Shown: piece after piece, positions 3,739 to 32,146 of the stretch
Numbering within the stretch: position 1 is the stretch's first letter
How the letters are laid out: every line of letters starts with the position of its first letter
Origin: Alphaproteobacteria bacterium
Lineage (GTDB): Bacteria > Pseudomonadota > Alphaproteobacteria > Micavibrionales > Micavibrionaceae
NCBI GenBank assembly: GCA_002690045.1
Contig: NZDE01000012.1
Span: 124,001 to 188,000, forward strand
Reading direction: 5' to 3'
Length of the DNA: 64,000 bases
Made by a program: the position numbers and the translations under genes
The notes under the pieces: generated by a model
What the model was told of the DNA's origin: nothing
What the model saw: the letters and a program-made list of their open reading frames with translations, nothing else
Database searches by the model: none

Positions 3739-5403
<1,665 letters not shown>

Positions 5404-5461
5404 TTAATTTCCTTATGTTTAGATTTTTGAGTGTTCACATTTCAATGTTTCGAACAGCCGC

Positions 5462-5755
5462 TTATGCAGCTTCGATAACACCCATAATGTCGCTTTCTTT
5501 CATTACCAATAGCTCTTCGCCATCGATGGTCACTTCTGTACCTGACCATTTTGAGAAAAGAACGCGATCGCCCGCTTGAACATCAAGCGGCACAACTTTA
5601 CCTGCTTCATCACGTGCGCCAGAACCAACGGCCACGATTTCGCCTTCCATAGGCTTTTCTTTTACTGTGTCAGGAATAATAATCCCACCATCTGTTTTTT
5701 CACTGACTTCGATACGACGCAATAATACGCGATCATGTAAAGGACGGAATTTCAT
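5462..5755 (-). CDS. groES: Co-chaperonin GroES (10 kDa subunit)
   Basis: A 97-residue GroES starting [14 protein letters not shown], with the mobile-loop region [12 protein letters not shown] and the roof segment near [21 protein letters not shown]. It caps the GroEL chamber as a heptameric lid. The ATG at 5755 is chosen over one 33 nt upstream because AAGGAGA lies at ideal spacing (about 8 nt) before it, and because all GroES proteins start at this methionine. It is first in the groES-groEL operon. Confidence 0.99.
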
Positions 5756-5850
5756 TATAGTATTCTCCTTAGTTGTTAAAGTTAGCAAGCTGCATATACC
5801 TTATGTGCAAGCCTACATACAGCTCCTTACACCCTGCATGACAAATGCAT

Positions 5851-5877
5851 TTAGCACTCCTCACACGAGAGTGCTAA
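5851..5877. promoter_or_regulatory. CIRCE operator (HrcA-binding inverted repeat) of groESL
   Basis: Perfect 9-bp arms TTAGCACTC and GAGTGCTAA are separated by exactly 9 bases, matching the CIRCE consensus at every arm position. It lies about 95 nt upstream of the groES start, next to the promoter. It predicts repression by HrcA, whose gene is not in the window. Confidence 0.97.
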
Positions 5878-5878
5878 A

Positions 5879-5907
5879 TAGATAGATCAGCGGCAAAAAA
5901 ATTTCAA
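5879..5907 (-). promoter_or_regulatory. Candidate groESL promoter
   Basis: On the minus strand a TTGAAA box (5902-5907) is 17 nt from a TATCTA box (5879-5884). The -10 box ends two bases before CIRCE, so the operator would cover the transcription start, as expected for HrcA control. The -10 box is a moderate match only. Confidence 0.55.
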
Positions 5908-5956
5908 GGGAAATCGACTCTTTTTTGAGTCTTTATGCGGGCTTGTGCACAAAATA

Positions 5957-6874
5957 TTATGACGCTATCGAATCATATAGACTGCCGAATTTTTCGTCAT
6001 ATTCGTGGCATTGGTCGATGCCGGCGCGGTAATCGGGGTAATGCAGCGAGACGCCGAGCTCTTCTTTTATGCGGTCATTATGGACGCGCTTATTGTCGGA
6101 ATAGAAGCTAAGCGCCATTGGCGGTAAGTTTGCCTCTTCAATCGGGACTAGCGGCGGAACTGCATGGTTTAGTAATTCACAGGCATAGGCGATAACTTCA
6201 TGCGCAGGGGCTGGATTATCGTCACAGACATTATAAACAGCGCCCGCATTAGGCTGCGCGATGGAGGCACGCACGACCTGTATAATATCTTCAACATGAA
6301 TGCGGCTAAAGACCTGCCCTTGTTTTTCAATGCGGCGCGCAATACCCGCGCGCACCGAGTCGAGCGCAGAGCGGCCCGGCCCGTATATGCCCGCGAGGCG
6401 AAAGACATGCACAGGCAAATTTTCACGTCGGCGTAGTGAGCGCCATTGTTCTTCAGCTTTACAGCGGCGCGTACCGCGGATGGTCGTTGGCGTAGTTTCG
6501 GTATATTCATCAACCCAATCACCGCCACGGTCACCATAGACACATGTGGAGGACAAATACCCAACCCATTCAAGGTTTGGCAAAGTTGAAAGCATATCGC
6601 CATGCGCCAGAAATGCTGGGCAGCCGTCTTTACCCGGCGGGGTCGAAATCAAAATATGGGTGACGTCTTTTAACACATATAGCGGGTCACCAAGTGGGCG
6701 TTCATCATCAAACAGATAAGACGAAATTCCCGCATTGCGCATCATTTCACGTTTATCGGAATCGCGCGATGTGCCGGCAACCGCCCAGCCCTCATCACGC
6801 AGCGCCTGACCAAGGAAGTCACAAACATAGCCATAGCCAAAACAGAATAGTTTTTTTTGATTATTATTTTCCAT
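5957..6874 (-). CDS. SDR-family NAD(P)-binding protein, YeeZ-like epimerase/dehydratase homologue
   Basis: A 305-residue Rossmann-fold protein. The N-terminal FGYGYVCDFLGQAL carries a GxGxxG-like dinucleotide loop. GYLSSTCVYGDRGGDWVDE corresponds to the active-site strand of extended SDR proteins, and VFRLAGIYGPGRSALD to the conserved substrate-domain entry. This combination is typical of YeeZ-like proteins annotated as nucleoside-diphosphate-sugar epimerases, but the classical YxxxK pair is not evident, so the chemistry is unknown. The start is taken at the ATG at 6874. A GTG six nt upstream is in frame, and neither has a strong ribosome-binding site. The gene lies just upstream of the groESL promoter, in the same orientation, and is probably transcribed separately. 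Confidence 0.7.
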   Translation of the reverse strand: MENNNQKKLFCFGYGYVCDFLGQALRDEGWAVAGTSRDSDKREMMRNAGISSYLFDDERPLGDPLYVLKDVTHILISTPPGKDGCPAFLAHGDMLSTLPNLEWVGYLSSTCVYGDRGGDWVDEYTETTPTTIRGTRRCKAEEQWRSLRRRENLPVHVFRLAGIYGPGRSALDSVRAGIARRIEKQGQVFSRIHVEDIIQVVRASIAQPNAGAVYNVCDDNPAPAHEVIAYACELLNHAVPPLVPIEEANLPPMALSFYSDNKRVHNDRIKEELGVSLHYPDYRAGIDQCHEYDEKFGSLYDSIAS

Positions 6875-6955
6875 TATCACGCACGCCTGTAAATAACGCC
6901 CATTAAACCCACAACAATTAATTAGATATAGCTAATATTATACCCTGCCTAGCAA

Positions 6956-7624
6956 TCAAAAATCAACGTTTTCGTAATGTCTGGCAGGTAAGAAGCCCGG
7001 AATACGATCTTCGAGCAAACCTTGGAAAGATGGGCGCGATTTAACGCGCGCATACCAATCTTTCGCCGCCTGATGTTCATCCCACGGGACGTCACCAATA
7101 TAATCAATAGCCGATAAATGCGCCGCGGCTGCAATATCCGCGAGGGAGAACTGATCCCCCGCTAGCCAGTTGCGTTTTTCGGTTAGGAAGCCAATATAAT
7201 CCATATGGTAATGAATATTGGCGTGACCGGCGCGAATAGATGGGCCATGCGGCTCACCCATTTTCAAGAAGCGCTTCATCAGTTTCTCACCGACCAAGTT
7301 TTCTGTTACTTCCTGATTAAACTTAATATCAAACCAACAGGTCAAACGGCGAACTTCCGCCTTTTGCACAGGGTCGTGGCCAAGCAATGTTGGCTCAGGA
7401 TAGACCTCATCAAGATATTCGCAAATGACCATAGAGTTGGCGAGCGTTGTGCCATCCGCCTCGACCAATACAGGCACATCACCTGCAGGGTTCATGGCAA
7501 GAAATTCGGTGCGGCGTTCCCACACACGTTCAATTTCGCTTTTAAATTCAAGCTGTTTTTCCGCAAGAACGATACGAACTTTGCGTGAAAAAGGGTGCAG
7601 CCATAAATGATACAACGTTCTCAT
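6956..7624 (-). CDS. Glutathione S-transferase family protein
   Basis: A 222-residue cytosolic GST-fold protein. The N-terminal thioredoxin-like domain runs over about residues 1-80, with SRKVRIVLAEKQL as its first helix, NPAGDVPVLV (the cis-proline region before strand 3) and NSMVICEYLDEVYP, the glutathione-binding SNAI-like segment. The C-terminal helical domain contains NWLAGDQFSLADIAAAAHLSAIDYIGD, the N-capping motif of the GST core. It should bind glutathione and act in detoxification or a related thiol reaction; the substrate cannot be deduced. It lies between the SDR gene and the AsmA gene, all on the minus strand, with gaps of about 80-95 nt. Confidence 0.88.
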   Translation of the reverse strand: MRTLYHLWLHPFSRKVRIVLAEKQLEFKSEIERVWERRTEFLAMNPAGDVPVLVEADGTTLANSMVICEYLDEVYPEPTLLGHDPVQKAEVRRLTCWFDIKFNQEVTENLVGEKLMKRFLKMGEPHGPSIRAGHANIHYHMDYIGFLTEKRNWLAGDQFSLADIAAAAHLSAIDYIGDVPWDEHQAAKDWYARVKSRPSFQGLLEDRIPGFLPARHYENVDF

Positions 7625-7719
7625 GCTTATATTTATACATTAGGAATCAAGGTTTGAACAGGCCTAACCGTCATTTTTTACCTGCACGAACCCAAAACCG
7701 CTATTTATATAAGCAAACC

Positions 7720-23833: not shown

Positions 23834-24637
23834 ATGGCTGATGAAACTGTGAAGAAATCTTGTATTGCTAAGAAAATTGGACTTGGGGTCGCCCTATTGG
23901 TTATTGCTGGCGGCGTGTTTGTTTACATGAACATGGGCTCAATCGCCAAGACAATCGCCGAAAAAGTCGGCAGCGATACCTTGGGCGTAAAGGTTAGCAT
24001 TTCTAGCATCGACATCAGCCTTAAAAACAAATCCGTTCTAGTGAGTGGCCTATCTGTTGCCAACCCAAAAAGCTTTAAGAAACCACATGCAATGAAAGTC
24101 GGCTCAATTCATATCGCGATGGATTCGTTTTCAAAAGAGCTTCTTACTTTTAATGATGTTAGCGTAAAAGGCAGTGAGCTGTTTTTAGAAGTTACGCCAA
24201 AAGGTACAAATTTAAGCGCCATTAAGAAGAATATTGATCAAAACAAAAAACCACCGACCAAACCGAAAGAAGAAAGCAGCAAAGCTGCGCCAAAAGTCAT
24301 CTTAAAGAACTTCTTATTTGCTGGCGCGCAACTGCACCCATCACAAACATTAATTAGCGGCCATGACTTAAAAGACGTCAATGTTCCAGACATCAAGCTT
24401 ACAAGCATAGGCGTGAAACAAAATGGCGTGCTTGCCCGCGAAGCCATCGCACAGATTTGGGAAGCGATTTCTAAAGGCGCATTAAAAGCATCATCCAATG
24501 CTGGCCTATTAGAAGGAATGTCCGCAGATAGTCTAAAAGATTTGTCTAGCACTATGGGCATATCAAATATTGGTGGCAGCGCATCTGGCAAGGTAGAAAA
24601 AGCCAAAGAAGGCATCAAGAGCCTGTTTGGTCAATAA
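23834..24637 (+). CDS. AsmA-like single-pass envelope protein
   Basis: A 267-residue protein with a membrane helix at about residues 13-32 (IGLGVALLVIAGGVFVYMNM). It then has GVKVSISSIDISLKNKSVLVSGLSVANP, the start pattern of AsmA/DUF748-like periplasmic proteins. A Lys/Pro-rich linker near residues 135-155 is followed by a second small beta domain and an amphipathic C-terminus. It is probably an inner-membrane-anchored periplasmic protein, with envelope lipid homeostasis as a guess by family. It is followed at 39 nt by the TAXI binding-protein gene in the same orientation and may be cotranscribed with it. Confidence 0.7.
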   Translation: MADETVKKSCIAKKIGLGVALLVIAGGVFVYMNMGSIAKTIAEKVGSDTLGVKVSISSIDISLKNKSVLVSGLSVANPKSFKKPHAMKVGSIHIAMDSFSKELLTFNDVSVKGSELFLEVTPKGTNLSAIKKNIDQNKKPPTKPKEESSKAAPKVILKNFLFAGAQLHPSQTLISGHDLKDVNVPDIKLTSIGVKQNGVLAREAIAQIWEAISKGALKASSNAGLLEGMSADSLKDLSSTMGISNIGGSASGKVEKAKEGIKSLFGQ

Positions 24638-24676
24638 AGACATTCGCAGCACAACAGAAAGTAACTGGATAAGACC

Positions 24677-25951
24677 ATGCATATTCCTGAAACCGTGAAA
24701 ACCTATGGCCTCATTGCATTAATTATTGCATGTTCTTTTTGGTTTGCTGCCCGCTTTATTGAACCCACGCCGCCAAAAGAAATTACCATCGCAGCTGGGG
24801 CTGTTGGTGGTGATTATTATCGTTATGCAGAGAAGTATCAAAAGCATCTGGCGAATGAAGGCATCACCCTCAATATTTTAGAGACTGCAGGGTCGCTTGA
24901 GAACATCACCCTTTTAGAAGAGAAAAAAGCCGATATAGCTTTTATCCAAAGCGGTTTAGCCACAGAAGATAATTCTGAATATATCGAAGCGTTAAGCGGC
25001 TTATATTTCGAACCCATTTGGGTCTTTATACGTACAGATGTCTTTTCAGGGATAGACCTCCAAAAGCTAAAAAACCGTAGGATAGCTATTGGGAAAGTTG
25101 GTAGCGGAACAAATAAAGTCGCCCGCCAGTTATTAGAGTTAAACAAAATGGTGGATGATACAACACTACTCGAAATATCAGGTCAGAACGCCATAGATGC
25201 CCTAAAAAAAGGTACGGTTGATGCCGCCGTATTTGTCGCAAAACCGAGCGCAGCAACGATACAAACACTTATGCACGACAAGAGCCTGCACTTACTTTCT
25301 TTTGATCGCGCCTATGGTTATACAAGCACTTATAAATTCCTGTCTAAGGTGACACTAAATGAAGGTGTCATTGATATGGCGCAGAATATCCCGAACAAAA
25401 GCGTTCCTCTTTTAAGCCCCGTGGCACAGCTTGCCGCACATAAAGACTTTCACGGCGCATTAAAAACACTGCTGGTTAGCACAACTATGGATATTCACAA
25501 AGACGCAACACTTCTTTCTACTAAAGGCCAATTCCCTACCCTAGACTTTATCGATCTTCCCATCGCGAGTGAAGCCACACGTTATTTCACCTACGGCCCC
25601 AATATTTTACAGCGTTTTTTGCCCTTCTGGCTCGTTGACATGATTAGCCGCATGGTCGTGATGCTTATTCCTTTATTGGGGGTTATGCTGCCATTAATAA
25701 AACTCGCATCACCGACGTACCGCTGGCGCACGCGCTCCAAAATTTACAAATGGTATAAAAGCTTGAAAAAAATGGAAGAAACTGCGAATGCAAGCGATGC
25801 CGATTTAGATGAAATTTTAGCGGCACTTTCAAAAATAGATGCCGATGTAAAAAAGACGATCGTCCCTTTATCATATGCAGATGAACTGTATAATCTGCGT
25901 TTACACATTCAGATGATTAAAGACCACGTGGAACGCAACAAACATCCATAG
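24677..25951 (+). CDS. TAXI family TRAP-type solute-binding protein with C-terminal membrane anchor
   Basis: A 424-residue protein. An N-terminal membrane helix or uncleaved signal (about residues 9-25) precedes a TAXI-type periplasmic binding domain. ITIAAGAVGGDYYRYAEKY holds the GxxGGxYY-like start motif, and VGSGTNKVARQLLE is the second conserved segment. Near 313-345 there is another membrane segment (FWLVDMISRMVVMLIPLLGVMLPLI), followed by a basic, probably cytosolic tail of about 80 residues with helices. TAXI proteins normally deliver ligand to a TRAP permease, but no permease gene is adjacent. The extra anchor suggests a sensor or accessory role. The ligand is unknown. Confidence 0.85.
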   Translation: MHIPETVKTYGLIALIIACSFWFAARFIEPTPPKEITIAAGAVGGDYYRYAEKYQKHLANEGITLNILETAGSLENITLLEEKKADIAFIQSGLATEDNSEYIEALSGLYFEPIWVFIRTDVFSGIDLQKLKNRRIAIGKVGSGTNKVARQLLELNKMVDDTTLLEISGQNAIDALKKGTVDAAVFVAKPSAATIQTLMHDKSLHLLSFDRAYGYTSTYKFLSKVTLNEGVIDMAQNIPNKSVPLLSPVAQLAAHKDFHGALKTLLVSTTMDIHKDATLLSTKGQFPTLDFIDLPIASEATRYFTYGPNILQRFLPFWLVDMISRMVVMLIPLLGVMLPLIKLASPTYRWRTRSKIYKWYKSLKKMEETANASDADLDEILAALSKIDADVKKTIVPLSYADELYNLRLHIQMIKDHVERNKHP

Positions 25952-26046
25952 ACCTATACTATAGACGTACCTCATATACTTGATATTTATCAACAAAACT
26001 ACCCGCTCATGCTACAATTGTAGGTAAGATTACGGGAGAGAAAGTA

Positions 26047-26430
26047 ATGAAAACACGTATTATGGTTGTTGACGACAGCGAAACAGAAAGATTTATCTTT
26101 AGTCTAGTGTTAAAGAAGATTAATGCTGACCTTGAGCACATTGAGGCCGCAAACGGGCAAGAAGCCCTCGAGCTCCTAAAAACTTCAGACACACATCCTG
26201 ATTTTATATTCCTAGATTTAAATATGCCGATTATGGACGGGTTCGAATTCTTAGAAGAAATCACGAATAAGCATCACATTAACAGTAAAGTTGTGGTTGT
26301 CTCTAGCTCATATAGAGAAGATGATATTAAACGCTCAACTAGCTATCCAATTGTCTGCGACTATATTGCTAAGCCAATAAATATATCCGCTCTAACAGAT
26401 ACAATAAATATAATTAGCGCTGCCAATTAA
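26047..26430 (+). CDS. Single-domain response regulator (CheY-like receiver)
   Basis: A 127-residue stand-alone receiver domain. The acidic pair is D9-D10 in MVVDDSETE, the phosphoacceptor is D57 in FLDLNMPIMDG, the switch serine lies in VVVSSSY, and K109 sits in the AKPI motif. There is no output domain, so it works by protein-protein contact or phosphorelay. No kinase gene is adjacent; the soluble kinase at 12354 is a possible but unproven partner. GGGAGAGAAAGTA precedes the ATG. Confidence 0.93.
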   Translation: MKTRIMVVDDSETERFIFSLVLKKINADLEHIEAANGQEALELLKTSDTHPDFIFLDLNMPIMDGFEFLEEITNKHHINSKVVVVSSSYREDDIKRSTSYPIVCDYIAKPINISALTDTINIISAAN

Positions 26431-26761: not shown

Positions 26762-28141
26762 ATGATCAAGGGCTGTAAGAACACATTTAAATTCAAGAAA
26801 ACTTCCGAATCAGGCATGACCTTGCTTGAGGTCGCTATTGGCATGATTATTATTGGCGTGCTTGTGGTTGCGCTGCTTCCTTTTTACAAAAAATATAAAT
26901 ATGACAACATTAAATATGACACATCGCGCAGTCTTGGTGATGTTGAACGCGCCCTTTCGCGTTACGCCCTGATTCATGGTAAATATCCAAAACCTTCGCA
27001 GCGCGACCTTAAATATGGTGATGCGGAGTATGGTAAAGAAACAACAGCCGCCATTACGGCGTGCGTTTTAAACGACCCGAAAGTCTGCCGCCTTAACGGT
27101 TTTGGCGATAAAGATGGCACCCCCGGCACAGATACTGTTTTACGCGGCGATGTGCCATTCGCTGTACTTGGCCTGCCTTACACCAGTGGTGTTGATGGCT
27201 ATGGTAACCGTATTACCTATGTTATATCAGAATCTTTGACAAATACTGATTTAACAACATTTGATGATGATTGGGGCGTTGTCCGCGTTAAGAACCGTGC
27301 GGGCATTGCCGATTCAGCCGTTAATAACTTTACTGCGGGCGATGCGCACTTCGCATTAATTAGTCATGGGCGCAACGGCGTTGGCACGTATACCAGCCAA
27401 GGCACATTACGCGCAGCATGTAGCGGCGTTAACTGGGGGCAAGACATTGAAAATTGTGATCTAGATTCTGAATATACTAATAATTTTGACGCATCTGTCG
27501 TTGACAGTTCAGGCATCCCGCGTGACCGCCGCCAAAGTGCAGATGTAGAGGGCGCAGCTTATTATGACGATTTTGTTGAATTTAGTAACTTGCTTATTGA
27601 GGGCACATGGCTTCGTTCAGGCGATAATATTGCCTCTGGCAACTCGGTTAACTCTAGCATCGTGGCTGTAAAAGTCGGTGCACAGAATAGTACGGCAAAC
27701 CCCGAAGACAAAGTCGTATATTACAATGATGTTGACGGCAACGGCGATGGACGGGACGACCCGCCAACAGCCAAGCTTAATATTGTTGGCGCCAATAAAA
27801 GTTTGAAAGCGAATGCCGCCTATGTGAACCGCCTCTGCCCTGCATCTGACCCAGGCTGTAACCAAGAAACTCATATTGGCGATAGTAACAATTTTACAGC
27901 AGGTATATTTAACCCTGCCATTCTCGGCGCAGATGCCAGCAGCAATAGCGGCACGGTTTTATCCGATTCAAACGGCATAAACTGTACAACAGGCGAACAT
28001 CTGGTTGGCATTAACGGCGCAGAGGAAGTCTGCGAGAAGATTATTCCACCGAGCGTAAAAAGCCTCGGGTCAACATTATGTGACCCGACCAATGGTATTT
28101 ATCCGCGCGGTGTTGTCGGTGGCGTTTTAGTATGTGAATAG
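26762..28141 (+). CDS. Large pseudopilin-like protein 1 with type IV prepilin leader
   Basis: A 459-residue protein with a class-III prepilin leader. Cleavage is expected after G18 (SESG|MTLLEVAIG), with Glu at mature position 5 and a hydrophobic helix IIIGVLVVALLPF. The first mature residue is Met instead of Phe. The large exported part shares landmarks with the two following proteins: GVDGYGNRITYVIS, ISHGRNGVGTYTSQG and YYDDFVEF. A segment AKLNIVGANKSLKANAAYVN resembles tail-fibre-type repeats, and a terminal part has paired cysteines (CTTGEHLVGINGAEEVCEK). It is probably a minor pilin or pseudopilin displayed at a pilus tip. No other pilus genes are in the window. It is first of three genes, 19 nt before the second. 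Confidence 0.8.
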   Translation: MIKGCKNTFKFKKTSESGMTLLEVAIGMIIIGVLVVALLPFYKKYKYDNIKYDTSRSLGDVERALSRYALIHGKYPKPSQRDLKYGDAEYGKETTAAITACVLNDPKVCRLNGFGDKDGTPGTDTVLRGDVPFAVLGLPYTSGVDGYGNRITYVISESLTNTDLTTFDDDWGVVRVKNRAGIADSAVNNFTAGDAHFALISHGRNGVGTYTSQGTLRAACSGVNWGQDIENCDLDSEYTNNFDASVVDSSGIPRDRRQSADVEGAAYYDDFVEFSNLLIEGTWLRSGDNIASGNSVNSSIVAVKVGAQNSTANPEDKVVYYNDVDGNGDGRDDPPTAKLNIVGANKSLKANAAYVNRLCPASDPGCNQETHIGDSNNFTAGIFNPAILGADASSNSGTVLSDSNGINCTTGEHLVGINGAEEVCEKIIPPSVKSLGSTLCDPTNGIYPRGVVGGVLVCE

Positions 28142-28160
28142 AAAAAGTGATTGAGAAGAT

Positions 28161-29414
28161 ATGAAACAGCAAAACATAATCATGAAAAACAAGAATAAAG
28201 CCAGCGCTGGCTTTACATTGATTGAGCTGTCCATTGTCATCATCATTATTGCGATCACGATGATTCCGCTTATACAAGCGATTGAGCGTTATTACGAAAA
28301 CCGCCGCATTGATTACACGCAAAAAGTCATCGCCGCAGCAACAACCATGATTTCAGAATACCCAAATGCCGTTGTTGATGAAGTATATCCTTGCCCCGCT
28401 TATCGCGACAAACCAATCACAGATGTTGACTATGGCGTGTCACCCGATTGTTCAAGCTTACCAGCTGATGTTGATCAGCCCGGTGAATGTCATCGCGGCG
28501 TTTGTATTGTCGAAAGTAATTTCGACAGGGACAACGATGGTAATGACGACTGGATCATAATTGGCGGTTTTCCCATTGCTCTGATCCAAGAAGAAGCTGC
28601 GAAAGGCAATATTGATTACCGTACAGCAGATCAATTCAGCACAAGAATGGATCTTGATGGGTGGGGTAATCAGTTAACTTATGCGGTAAGTTATAATTAT
28701 ACGATTGAAGGTAACCGCGAGAAATACTGGCTAGGCGTTGTCGATGCACGCGACGAATTTGGCCTACCAACCGCAGGCGTTGGCGATAACGCGCATTATG
28801 TCGTGGTATCACACGGCCCCAACCAACTCGGTGCCTATAACGGCAATGGCATTGTTGGCTTCCCATGTGACACGACCACTGTTGAAGGTGATAATTGCGA
28901 CAATGACGAAACTTTTGTCCAAGGATTAGGGTTCTATAAAGCAAATACAAATAAAGCCTATGATGATTTTGTACGTTTTTATTCCATTAATTCACAAAGT
29001 ATATGGGATGAAGACGAAGACGAAGACTGGGCGCGCGACCAAGTTTATTTTTCACCGAGCGGCAATTTATCCATCGCTATGGATAGCGCGACACTGCCTA
29101 GCGTGGCTCTAGAAGTTAATGGCGAAATTAAGGTTAACAATAACTTATTAGCCGATGAAATATGCGATAGCACCGGCTTATGTTTTAACACCGCATTAAT
29201 TACGGGTTCAGAAACATGCACCGGCGTTAACATTATGCGCGGCATTGGCAATAACGATTTAGATTGCGTTACACCGTCCACACCGGCTCCCGTCGGAACA
29301 TGTGAGAAAGAAGTCGGTGGCGGACCAGATGACGGCGACCCTACAAATAATGTGAAGGGTTTTATTCAAGGATTCAAAAGTGATGGAGGGGTAATATGTT
29401 ATTACAAACCGTAA
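28161..29414 (+). CDS. Large pseudopilin-like protein 2 with type IV prepilin leader
   Basis: A 417-residue protein with the leader ASAG|FTLIELSIV. Cleavage is expected after G17, and Glu5 of the mature form is present. The exported part contains VYPCPAYRD, then DGWGNQLTYAVSYN, VSHGPNQLGAYNGNG and YDDFVRFYS, the same order as in its two neighbours. Near the C-terminus VALEVNGEIKVNNNLLADEIC resembles the repeat found at the tips of phage tail fibres and other trimeric adhesins. A Cys pair follows (CTGVNIMRGIGNNDLDCV). The end is Gly/Asp-rich. The function is probably a minor pilin or adhesin. Its 3' end overlaps the third gene by 19 nt, implying coupled translation. Confidence 0.8.
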   Translation: MKQQNIIMKNKNKASAGFTLIELSIVIIIIAITMIPLIQAIERYYENRRIDYTQKVIAAATTMISEYPNAVVDEVYPCPAYRDKPITDVDYGVSPDCSSLPADVDQPGECHRGVCIVESNFDRDNDGNDDWIIIGGFPIALIQEEAAKGNIDYRTADQFSTRMDLDGWGNQLTYAVSYNYTIEGNREKYWLGVVDARDEFGLPTAGVGDNAHYVVVSHGPNQLGAYNGNGIVGFPCDTTTVEGDNCDNDETFVQGLGFYKANTNKAYDDFVRFYSINSQSIWDEDEDEDWARDQVYFSPSGNLSIAMDSATLPSVALEVNGEIKVNNNLLADEICDSTGLCFNTALITGSETCTGVNIMRGIGNNDLDCVTPSTPAPVGTCEKEVGGGPDDGDPTNNVKGFIQGFKSDGGVICYYKP

Positions 29415-32077
29415 AGAGAGCGTCGAAGCAAGCGAGCCCAGACAAAAGAAAAAATATGCGCGGCTTTACGCTGATTGAAATTTCAATCGCGTTGATTGTT
29501 GTCGGTTTGCTTATCACCCCCTTATTTAGCCTATATGCACAATATACGGTTAAGAAAAAACTGGAAGGTACTGAGGACAACATCCGCCGCGTTGTATCAA
29601 TGATGGAAGAATATCGTGACATTAATGGTGAATACCCGTGCCCCGCACCAATGAATGTCGCGCGCGATGACGTGAATAATGGGCGCGCCATGCCTTGTGA
29701 TGCCGCCACATTCGCAGCCTTCCCACAAGCACAAGGTGAATGCCTTGAAGGTATATGTTTACAAGCCAGCGTGCGCGGGGCATCTGATGTAATTATTGGT
29801 GCTGTACCGTTCCGCGACCTCCAAATGAGCGAGACAGATTCCCTTGATGGGTATGGCAACCGCCTTATGTACGCTGTAACGCAAGACTTGACTGAAATAA
29901 CAACATTTAACACCGATGCTGGCGGCATATCCATTGTGGACAGTGGCGGGAATGAAATGACACGCAACCAAGACGCCATGTTCTTGGTGTTAAGCTATGG
30001 CCCATCTAAGGAAGGCGCATACAGTAAATTTGGCATGCTCCAACAGCCATGTTCTACTGTCTCTACACTAGAAACAAACAACTGTATTCCTGACTTTGGT
30101 GGCAACGTTCCTGTGACGATGGCGTCAACAGATGCGATTTTCTCTTATGCGCCAATAACCACGGCGCAAAACGCCGATACTTTTGACCATATGATGCAGT
30201 TCCACGCCACGCATGAACAGGCACTATGGCGCCGTTACAACAACACGGCAGCTGAAATTGTACACGCACAGGATATGTCACAAGACCGCACGGTTGCGAT
30301 TGGCGTAAAAGAGCCTGACACAGATGTCGAACTTCAGGTAAATAGTGAAGTGGCCAATGCTGGTCAAAATGTTGCATCTATACGCATTAATTCAGGCAAC
30401 CTTATTACCGACCAACTCTGTGATGAAGCTGGCACATATTGTTTTGAGCCAAAATTACTTGCGGGTGACGTTGATGCTGCCACAGGCGGTATGCGCTGCG
30501 CCAATGCGGATGAATATATGGTCGGTATTGAAGCTGGTCAGCCTGTTTGTGAAAAAATCGAAGTTAAATGCCCAGACAGCAAACCTGTATTCATTGGTTA
30601 TGACACAGCAACAGGCGAAATGAAATGCGCCGATGCACCGGGGAATGGCTGTCTGTCATCAGCACAATCTGTCTGTGGCACAAATGATGTTATCGTATCC
30701 GATGCAAATGATGGTCAAACCCGCACCGTAAACGCTGGTTTTGAAGCTTGCGCGGAAGCCGTGTTTAAATGCGATAATGGCGCATGGAGTTTGTTTGACA
30801 CCAGTAAGGTCACCACAGCACGGTGTGAGTTTAAAACTGAAATTACAGAAACCGTTGAAGATTGTGGCGCACCAGGTGTCGACGACCTTTACGGCGACCA
30901 AACACGCACAAAGAAATCAACTACACGCTGCGCACAGTCTCCATTAGTCGAATGGACCGGCAGCTGTATTTGCGGCAAATATGAAGATGGAACATCAATC
31001 CCAGATGAAAACGAGTATACGACATGTGCAGCACTCGGCCACGATGCAATAGCCTCACCAAGTTACTTTTACGACGAAAATGGCGACCCTCAGGAGGTAC
31101 GACGCGTCATCACAACATACACATCAGGCGGCGCTTGTAAACGAAATGCAAAAAACGGCTGGGATTTAAGAAACTGTGAGTGTGACAACTACCCATCTAG
31201 CGTGTCATATACTTTAAAAACGATTTCCGAATGGCCGGGTTTAGGCCCAACAACAGGCGGGAATATAAACCTGTGGGATTCTAACGGCACATATAAAGAT
31301 ATGCCGGCACGTTTTAGTCCTGCGTCTTGTCCATCAGGACGTACTGGTACACGTGAACGCTTAGAGTATTTTGATACGCGTTTAAACCAATGTAAGTGGA
31401 AAAATACGGGCACAGCGATTTATCGCGCAGATACTTGTGCGTGTAATAACTGGCCTGGTTATGATAATGACACAAAAGAAGTCGCCTGTGGCGGCGGTTT
31501 CCCAGGCACATTGACGCAGCCAATCACATTTAATCATGCGGCATGTAAATGGGTTAATAATGGCCCACCAACAGGAACATGTACCTGTGACAAAGACCCG
31601 TCTAGCCCACCAGATGAGACACTTAGTTGTGGTTCAGGTTACTTTGCACCAGGCAGCTATAAAAAGCGCGCAATGAAACTTAACACATCGACATGTCAGT
31701 GGGTGAGTGATCCAAGTGGTGCAATCACTGAAGACAACTGTAACTGTGCTGGCCCACAGCCTGACACACAGCCGCACAGCTGTGATGACATGACCTGTGA
31801 AATCCCTGATGTGGATGACCAGATTTCCGTTCCGCTTACACCAAGCTGTCAATTAGATAGCGGAAACGCGACAATCACGGTAGTCGGCTCATGTAAGCAG
31901 AGAAAGTTCTTCTGGGATAAGGTTAGCTCGGAAGGCTTTGCTGACCCACCGCCAACAAACCCACGTTACATTGACGACCCTTGTGGGTGTGGTGATGAAG
32001 GCGACAAGGAATTCTGCTATGAATATGGTGACGATTCATTCCGTAAATATAAATGTGAATGCCGCCGCGCAGAATAA
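29396..32077 (+). CDS. Very large pseudopilin-like protein 3 with cysteine-rich C-terminal tail
   Basis: An 893-residue protein, far larger than ordinary pilins. Its leader is NMRG|FTLIEISIALIVV, with cleavage after G23 and Glu5 present. The first 400 residues follow the same plan as its neighbours: GEYPCPAPMN, DGYGNRLMYAVTQ, LSYGPSKEGAYSKFG, then VELQVNSEVANAG, ITDQLCDEAGTYCF and the Cys segment CANADEYMVGIEAGQPVCEK. From about residue 430 the protein becomes cysteine-rich. CxC motifs start at 524, 594, 681, 729, 782, 863 and 887, and several lie in loosely repeating units of the form CGxGF/Y...CxW...CxC. Many disulfides in the periplasm or outside are expected. GGAGGGG precedes the ATG. Confidence 0.8.
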   Translation: MLLQTVKRASKQASPDKRKNMRGFTLIEISIALIVVGLLITPLFSLYAQYTVKKKLEGTEDNIRRVVSMMEEYRDINGEYPCPAPMNVARDDVNNGRAMPCDAATFAAFPQAQGECLEGICLQASVRGASDVIIGAVPFRDLQMSETDSLDGYGNRLMYAVTQDLTEITTFNTDAGGISIVDSGGNEMTRNQDAMFLVLSYGPSKEGAYSKFGMLQQPCSTVSTLETNNCIPDFGGNVPVTMASTDAIFSYAPITTAQNADTFDHMMQFHATHEQALWRRYNNTAAEIVHAQDMSQDRTVAIGVKEPDTDVELQVNSEVANAGQNVASIRINSGNLITDQLCDEAGTYCFEPKLLAGDVDAATGGMRCANADEYMVGIEAGQPVCEKIEVKCPDSKPVFIGYDTATGEMKCADAPGNGCLSSAQSVCGTNDVIVSDANDGQTRTVNAGFEACAEAVFKCDNGAWSLFDTSKVTTARCEFKTEITETVEDCGAPGVDDLYGDQTRTKKSTTRCAQSPLVEWTGSCICGKYEDGTSIPDENEYTTCAALGHDAIASPSYFYDENGDPQEVRRVITTYTSGGACKRNAKNGWDLRNCECDNYPSSVSYTLKTISEWPGLGPTTGGNINLWDSNGTYKDMPARFSPASCPSGRTGTRERLEYFDTRLNQCKWKNTGTAIYRADTCACNNWPGYDNDTKEVACGGGFPGTLTQPITFNHAACKWVNNGPPTGTCTCDKDPSSPPDETLSCGSGYFAPGSYKKRAMKLNTSTCQWVSDPSGAITEDNCNCAGPQPDTQPHSCDDMTCEIPDVDDQISVPLTPSCQLDSGNATITVVGSCKQRKFFWDKVSSEGFADPPPTNPRYIDDPCGCGDEGDKEFCYEYGDDSFRKYKCECRRAE

Positions 32078-32098
32078 ATATCAATAAAATCAAAATAG

Positions 32099-32130
32099 AA
32101 AAACGCCGTATAAATATATACGGCGTTTTT
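32099..32130. terminator. Bidirectional terminator between the pseudopilin genes and the methyltransferase gene
   Basis: A perfect 14-bp inverted repeat, with core arms ACGCCGTATA and TATACGGCGT flanked by A and T runs, surrounds a 4-nt loop. It serves both convergent genes. Confidence 0.95.
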
Positions 32131-32146
32131 CATTGAGTGCTTAGGC

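Follow-up and report, generated by a model that had tools for sequence, protein, structure and literature searches.

The window, by which we mean the whole stretch of 64,000 nucleotides analysed here, comes from a relative of Micavibrio and raises the question of what a bacterium might do with three large prepilins encoded side by side, and of which machinery would handle them. All three genes lie on the forward strand. Gene A (26762..28141, 459 aa) has a leader through Gly18 (26762-26815), followed by MTLLE. Gene B (28161..29414, 417 aa) has a leader through Gly17 (28161-28211) and the large gene C (29396..32077, 893 aa) one through Gly23 (29396-29464), both followed by FTLIE. The residues in front of the cleavage site are SESG in A, ASAG in B and NMRG in C, so that each protein begins with a class III prepilin leader (Gly-1, Glu+5), after which comes a hydrophobic helix. 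An initial annotation had described three consecutive prepilin genes with Gly at the cleavage site and Glu5, spaced by 19 nt or overlapping. The ORF coordinates and leader models agree with it, with a gap of 19 nt between A and B and an overlap of 19 nt between B and C. Of the 89 ORFs tested in the window, each 80 aa or longer, only these three show the leader pattern, and the leader models PF07963 and TIGR02532 match A, B, C and just one other prepilin in the whole genome (2.88 Mb, 98.9% complete). A palindromic, terminator-like hairpin (32098..32131, no strand assigned) lies 20 nt past the stop codon of C and marks the operon end. The position of this hairpin after the last stop codon suggests that A, B and C form a single unit.

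Upstream, between a dihydroorotase-like gene and the array, the window encodes a DUF748 protein, an NMT1-like protein and a response regulator (23834-26430). These genes are missing from that spot in two sister genomes (L077, L078).

The profiles used to compare the proteins, one for the core and one for the downstream module, were built without the genus of the window. The core pilin-head domain is recognised in A at aa 61-285 (26942..27616, E ~1e-48), in B at aa 63-284 (28347..29012, E 2e-50) and in C at aa 68-280 (29597..30235, E ~1e-52), all on the forward strand. The match of about 215 residues in each protein confirms the common core, and the origin by duplication, that had been proposed for them. 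The initial annotation had itself made the proposal depend on the proteins aligning outside the leader. Since both profiles match all three there, A, B and C are true paralogues. At the place of the PCPA segment noted earlier in the second and third proteins, A carries YPKPS instead of the CPA motif.

The predicted structural models are weak, with mean pLDDT values of 57 and 47, and the model of C past about residue 470, which is mostly below pLDDT 50, was left out of the structure search. Residues 18-276 of the B model, with pLDDT around 70 in the core, gave structural matches to type IV pilins only, the best being CofA with a moderate Z score of 6.0, while TcpA reached 4.2. Foldseek alone, with the weak model as query, gave no significant match. 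By this comparison, residues ~18-276 adopt the fold of a type IV pilin. Among 56 homologues, 54 have a leader that is recognised by N_methyl. The pilin core of one family member (L094:8615-10192, G062) encloses a SUEL-type lectin domain (E 1.1e-9).

Alignment of the 56 homologues reveals a common plan, in which the leader and helix are followed by YPCPA, GxxPF, DGxGN...YAVT...LT, SHGxNxxGAY, C...NCD and DD...W. Further towards the C-terminus comes NVGIGTxxPxxxLxVxGxIxA and then CDxxGxxCFxPxxIGG...CPxGxxMxGIxNGxxxC. In the Cys-bounded segment that had been read as ending near CEK, what is conserved is the element CD..G..CF.P..I.G...CP.G..M.GI..G...C; the CEK ends are partly coincidental.

Downstream of the pilin head, the second profile detects a module with this Cys segment, again on the forward strand, in all three proteins. 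It covers aa 333-431 of A (27758..28054, E 1.5e-8), where it is degenerate, aa 281-381 of B (29001..29303, E 1e-14), with the stretch LEVNGEIKVNN, and aa 277-392 of C (30224..30571, E 4e-17). The tail-fibre-like character that had been suspected from such stretches was borne out by comparison with the mosaic adhesive trimer (MAT) fibres of Bdellovibrio. In such trimeric, beta-helical fibres the capping loop follows the MAT consensus V-G-[G/N]-x-x-x-P-x-x-x-L (PMC10769870). An unselected family profile (A1) matches the MAT protein Bd2133 at 1.8e-6, together with other MATs. A profile of clear examples (A6) finds only MATs and MyRF, with Bd2133 at 2.7e-14; this E-value is partly circular because the rows of A6 were picked for their MAT-like pattern. 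Phage tail-fibre families weakly match the same stretch in most clear examples. For the scan of the collection a genus alignment was used, since the alignments that spanned the whole order (A1, A2) were too diverse. The strict form of the motif occurs in 34 of 112 family members, versus 0.02% of shuffled tails, and in A, B and C themselves the module is short and degenerate. Judged by its sequence, the module downstream of the pilin head matches the MAT/tail-fibre capping-loop module.

Some members of the family are encoded by single genes with longer fibre regions and motifs of the VGIGTxxPxxxL type (L140:4742-7801 in G029 and L155:7583-9481 in G021); the G029 protein, of 1020 aa, contains more than one of them. 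Genome G091 encodes chimeras of pilin and tail spike, singly (L152:1325-4357) or paired (L153:897-4670 and 4677-7649). All three proteins match Peptidase_S74 as well as phage tail-spike families, and one of them in full runs from a pilin core through spike repeats to S74.

The size of C is due to its C-terminus, where tandem Cys modules of the form CxC...CPxGxxG...C..G.W...CxC add about 500 residues (30572..32074, forward strand, alignment A7). This Cys-rich end matches nothing in Pfam, PHROGs or PDB. In some relatives, the same core bears an S74 tail spike, a SUEL lectin or a LamG lectin. Between sister species the C-terminal parts diverge faster (dN ~0.20-0.23) than the cores (0.07-0.09), in a comparison where pairing by length mismatched some of the neighbouring control genes and dN/dS is unusable because dS is saturated. 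The Cys modules of C are presumably the adhesive tip; that they might bind a ligand is a guess, as they have no known relative.

The cassette is widespread. In the order that includes Micavibrio, relatives of B are found in 72 and relatives of C in 79 of 95 related genomes. Exactly three genes are present in 41 out of 59 clusters, and neighbouring genes mostly overlap or lie a few bases apart (median gap -10 nt). Singletons and pairs occur as well, and several of the pairs are cut by the ends of contigs or regions. The first tree groups the long genes, with 3 changes against 33 in shuffles. The labels A (first gene) and B were set by gene order after this tree had been seen, and when the family's 22 complete arrays are placed on a tree, the labels A, B and C need 2 changes, which is the minimum. 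Support in these arrays is 100 for C and 70 for A, and a single clade is compatible for B (p-AU 0.86). The pattern is less clear in arrays from other families of the order. As a rule, then, the cassette appears from its sequences to combine three old lineages, A, B and the long C, with one gene apiece.

Where an array has additional copies, these are mostly of C, and one genome has two full arrays. In G039 (L089:11787-13390) the lineage A gene seems to be split into two ORFs of 265 and 247 aa, and lineage C is duplicated. In two genomes resembling M. aeruginosavorus (L092 in G053, L154 in G024), opposite strands encode another two family members, a divergent second pair of ~350-370 and 520 aa.

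Furthermore, we sampled 385 genomes of the class. Matches from outside the order end where the core ends and the proteins are mostly ~235-340 aa long, which suggests that the fibre extension was added within the order to an older, short minor pilin. Two genomes from outside the order have several longer proteins, and in one outside genome (L101) such a short pilin lies beside PilC, PilM-P and PilT genes. No relative of the family was detected in the viral contigs searched, hence at that sensitivity there is no sign of a phage gene. We also found no description of the family or the cassette in the searchable literature, which covers few subscription papers.

The machinery for these pilins had been predicted to be encoded elsewhere, and the same genome does contain it at C13:63-77 kb, where PilB, PilC, PilM/N, PilO, PilP, an ABC protein, a TPR protein, PilD, two PilT proteins and a secretin are encoded; names other than PilB, PilC and PilT rest on position and sequence reading. 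PilY1 (PF05567) had no match in the genome at E 1, in a weak search that scarcely matched the control genomes either. The one further prepilin, of 257 aa (C14, L016:4426-5199), is solitary, far from all other pilus genes of the genome, and is likely the major pilin. In a sister family the cassette itself lies at the end of a pilus cluster running from PilB to PilD-PilT-PilT-secretin-major pilin (G062, G074, G077, G080), and in three of these four genomes a relative of the 257-aa prepilin is located there too. Across the order, PilC and the cassette are both present in 77 genomes, both absent in 11 and discordant in 7 (Fisher p ~4e-9, a value that ignores kinship).

The combined evidence makes it probable that the cassette is the tip complex of a retractable type IV pilus, made of three modular minor pilins which carry a tail-fibre-like adhesin for attachment to prey or surfaces. 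The earlier proposal of a set of tip adhesins is therefore still the best reading that we can infer. PilD would cleave the leaders of A, B and C, and the three proteins would be assembled first, at the pilus tip, probably one of each. Their fibre modules would then join as a heterotrimer, as the three chains of a trimeric beta-helical stalk resembling MAT fibres and phage tail fibres. The Cys modules of C would form the exposed end and bind the prey surface or another substrate, and retraction driven by PilT would draw the cell to the bound target. Duplication and fast divergence of C would shift the range of binding and leave the machinery untouched. Only tentatively do we go further and propose that A, B and C are an obligate heterotrimeric tip, with one stalk chain each, and that an order of predators uses the pilus as a retractable, phage-like receptor-binding fibre. 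Predation is documented for Micavibrio only, and the window comes from a relative of it.

Each protein could instead form a homotrimer, as CofB and TcpB do, so that there would be three alternative tips on different pili and not one mixed tip. These two minor pilins occur at the tip as homotrimers (PMC9565799), some singletons of the family bear complete S74 tail spikes, a type of protein that is homotrimeric in phages, and C alone is sometimes duplicated. However, one gene per lineage is kept together, with overlaps, and alternative tips need no such linkage; we regard separate homotrimers as unlikely. Could the three proteins be tip pilins for DNA uptake and not for cell recognition? Minor-pilin tips of competence pili bind DNA, and the pilus machinery here is retractable, but in the relatives the C-terminal modules belong to the lectins and tail spikes, which typically bind glycans, so a role in DNA uptake is very improbable. 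The least credible alternative is that A, B and C are type II secretion pseudopilins pushing exoproteins out: although their leaders weakly resemble GspG/GspH and a paper on M. aeruginosavorus suggests that pilus parts may replace missing Gsp parts (PMC3189940), GspG (TIGR01710) scores 20.9 bits against a cut-off of 88.85 and in the leader region only, the sole GspE/GspF-type pairs in the genome are PilB/PilC, with two adjoining PilT, and a Tad-like one, and PilT adjoins the cassette in the sister family. The label pseudopilin given by the initial annotation is thus wrong for a genome with PilT-type retraction ATPases, and we rejected it.

If the three paralogues do form a pilus tip, prey recognition by Micavibrio-like predators would depend on a specific three-gene cassette, the recognition modules of phages and Bdellovibrio would be tied to pili, and the stalk would be a natural case of a heterotrimeric, tail-fibre-like one.

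Modular pilins and three-pilin tips are already known; what is new is that three paralogues with a trimeric-fibre module in common make up a cassette and are kept one-of-each across an order which includes obligate predators. Modular pilins have an extra non-pilin module behind the pilin module, here the MAT/tail-fibre and Cys modules, and the combination of pilin and S74 has already been recorded among them (PMC8179133, PMC9934059). In Streptococcus sanguinis, PilA, PilB and PilC likewise carry a grafted adhesive module, are placed at the tip and cooperate as three minor pilins, whereas the three proteins of the cassette are paralogues with the same core and tail-fibre-like module, in an A/B/C set found order-wide (PMC8179133, PMC9934059). 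The KilLMN tips of Myxococcus Tad pili also have in each cassette three minor pilins, of which one bears a large variable domain, as well as a role in predation and repeated cassettes; they belong to a Tad pilus and not to a PilB/PilT-type pilus, the passages of the source that describe them mention no tail-fibre module, and the likeness is an analogy (PMC12075869). The MAT fibres of Bdellovibrio share the V-G-x-x-x-x-P-x-x-x-L capping-loop module and serve surface recognition in a predator (PMC10769870). However, MATs start with an ordinary signal peptide and a conserved beta-rich anchor of ~130 aa, whereas the cassette proteins have a pilin as anchor, with its alpha-1 helix directly behind the leader. 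CofB and TcpB of type IVb pili are comparable as large minor pilins with a pilin head, beta-rich extra domains and a trimeric tip, but they form a homotrimer from one gene and have no known tail-fibre motif (PMC9565799).
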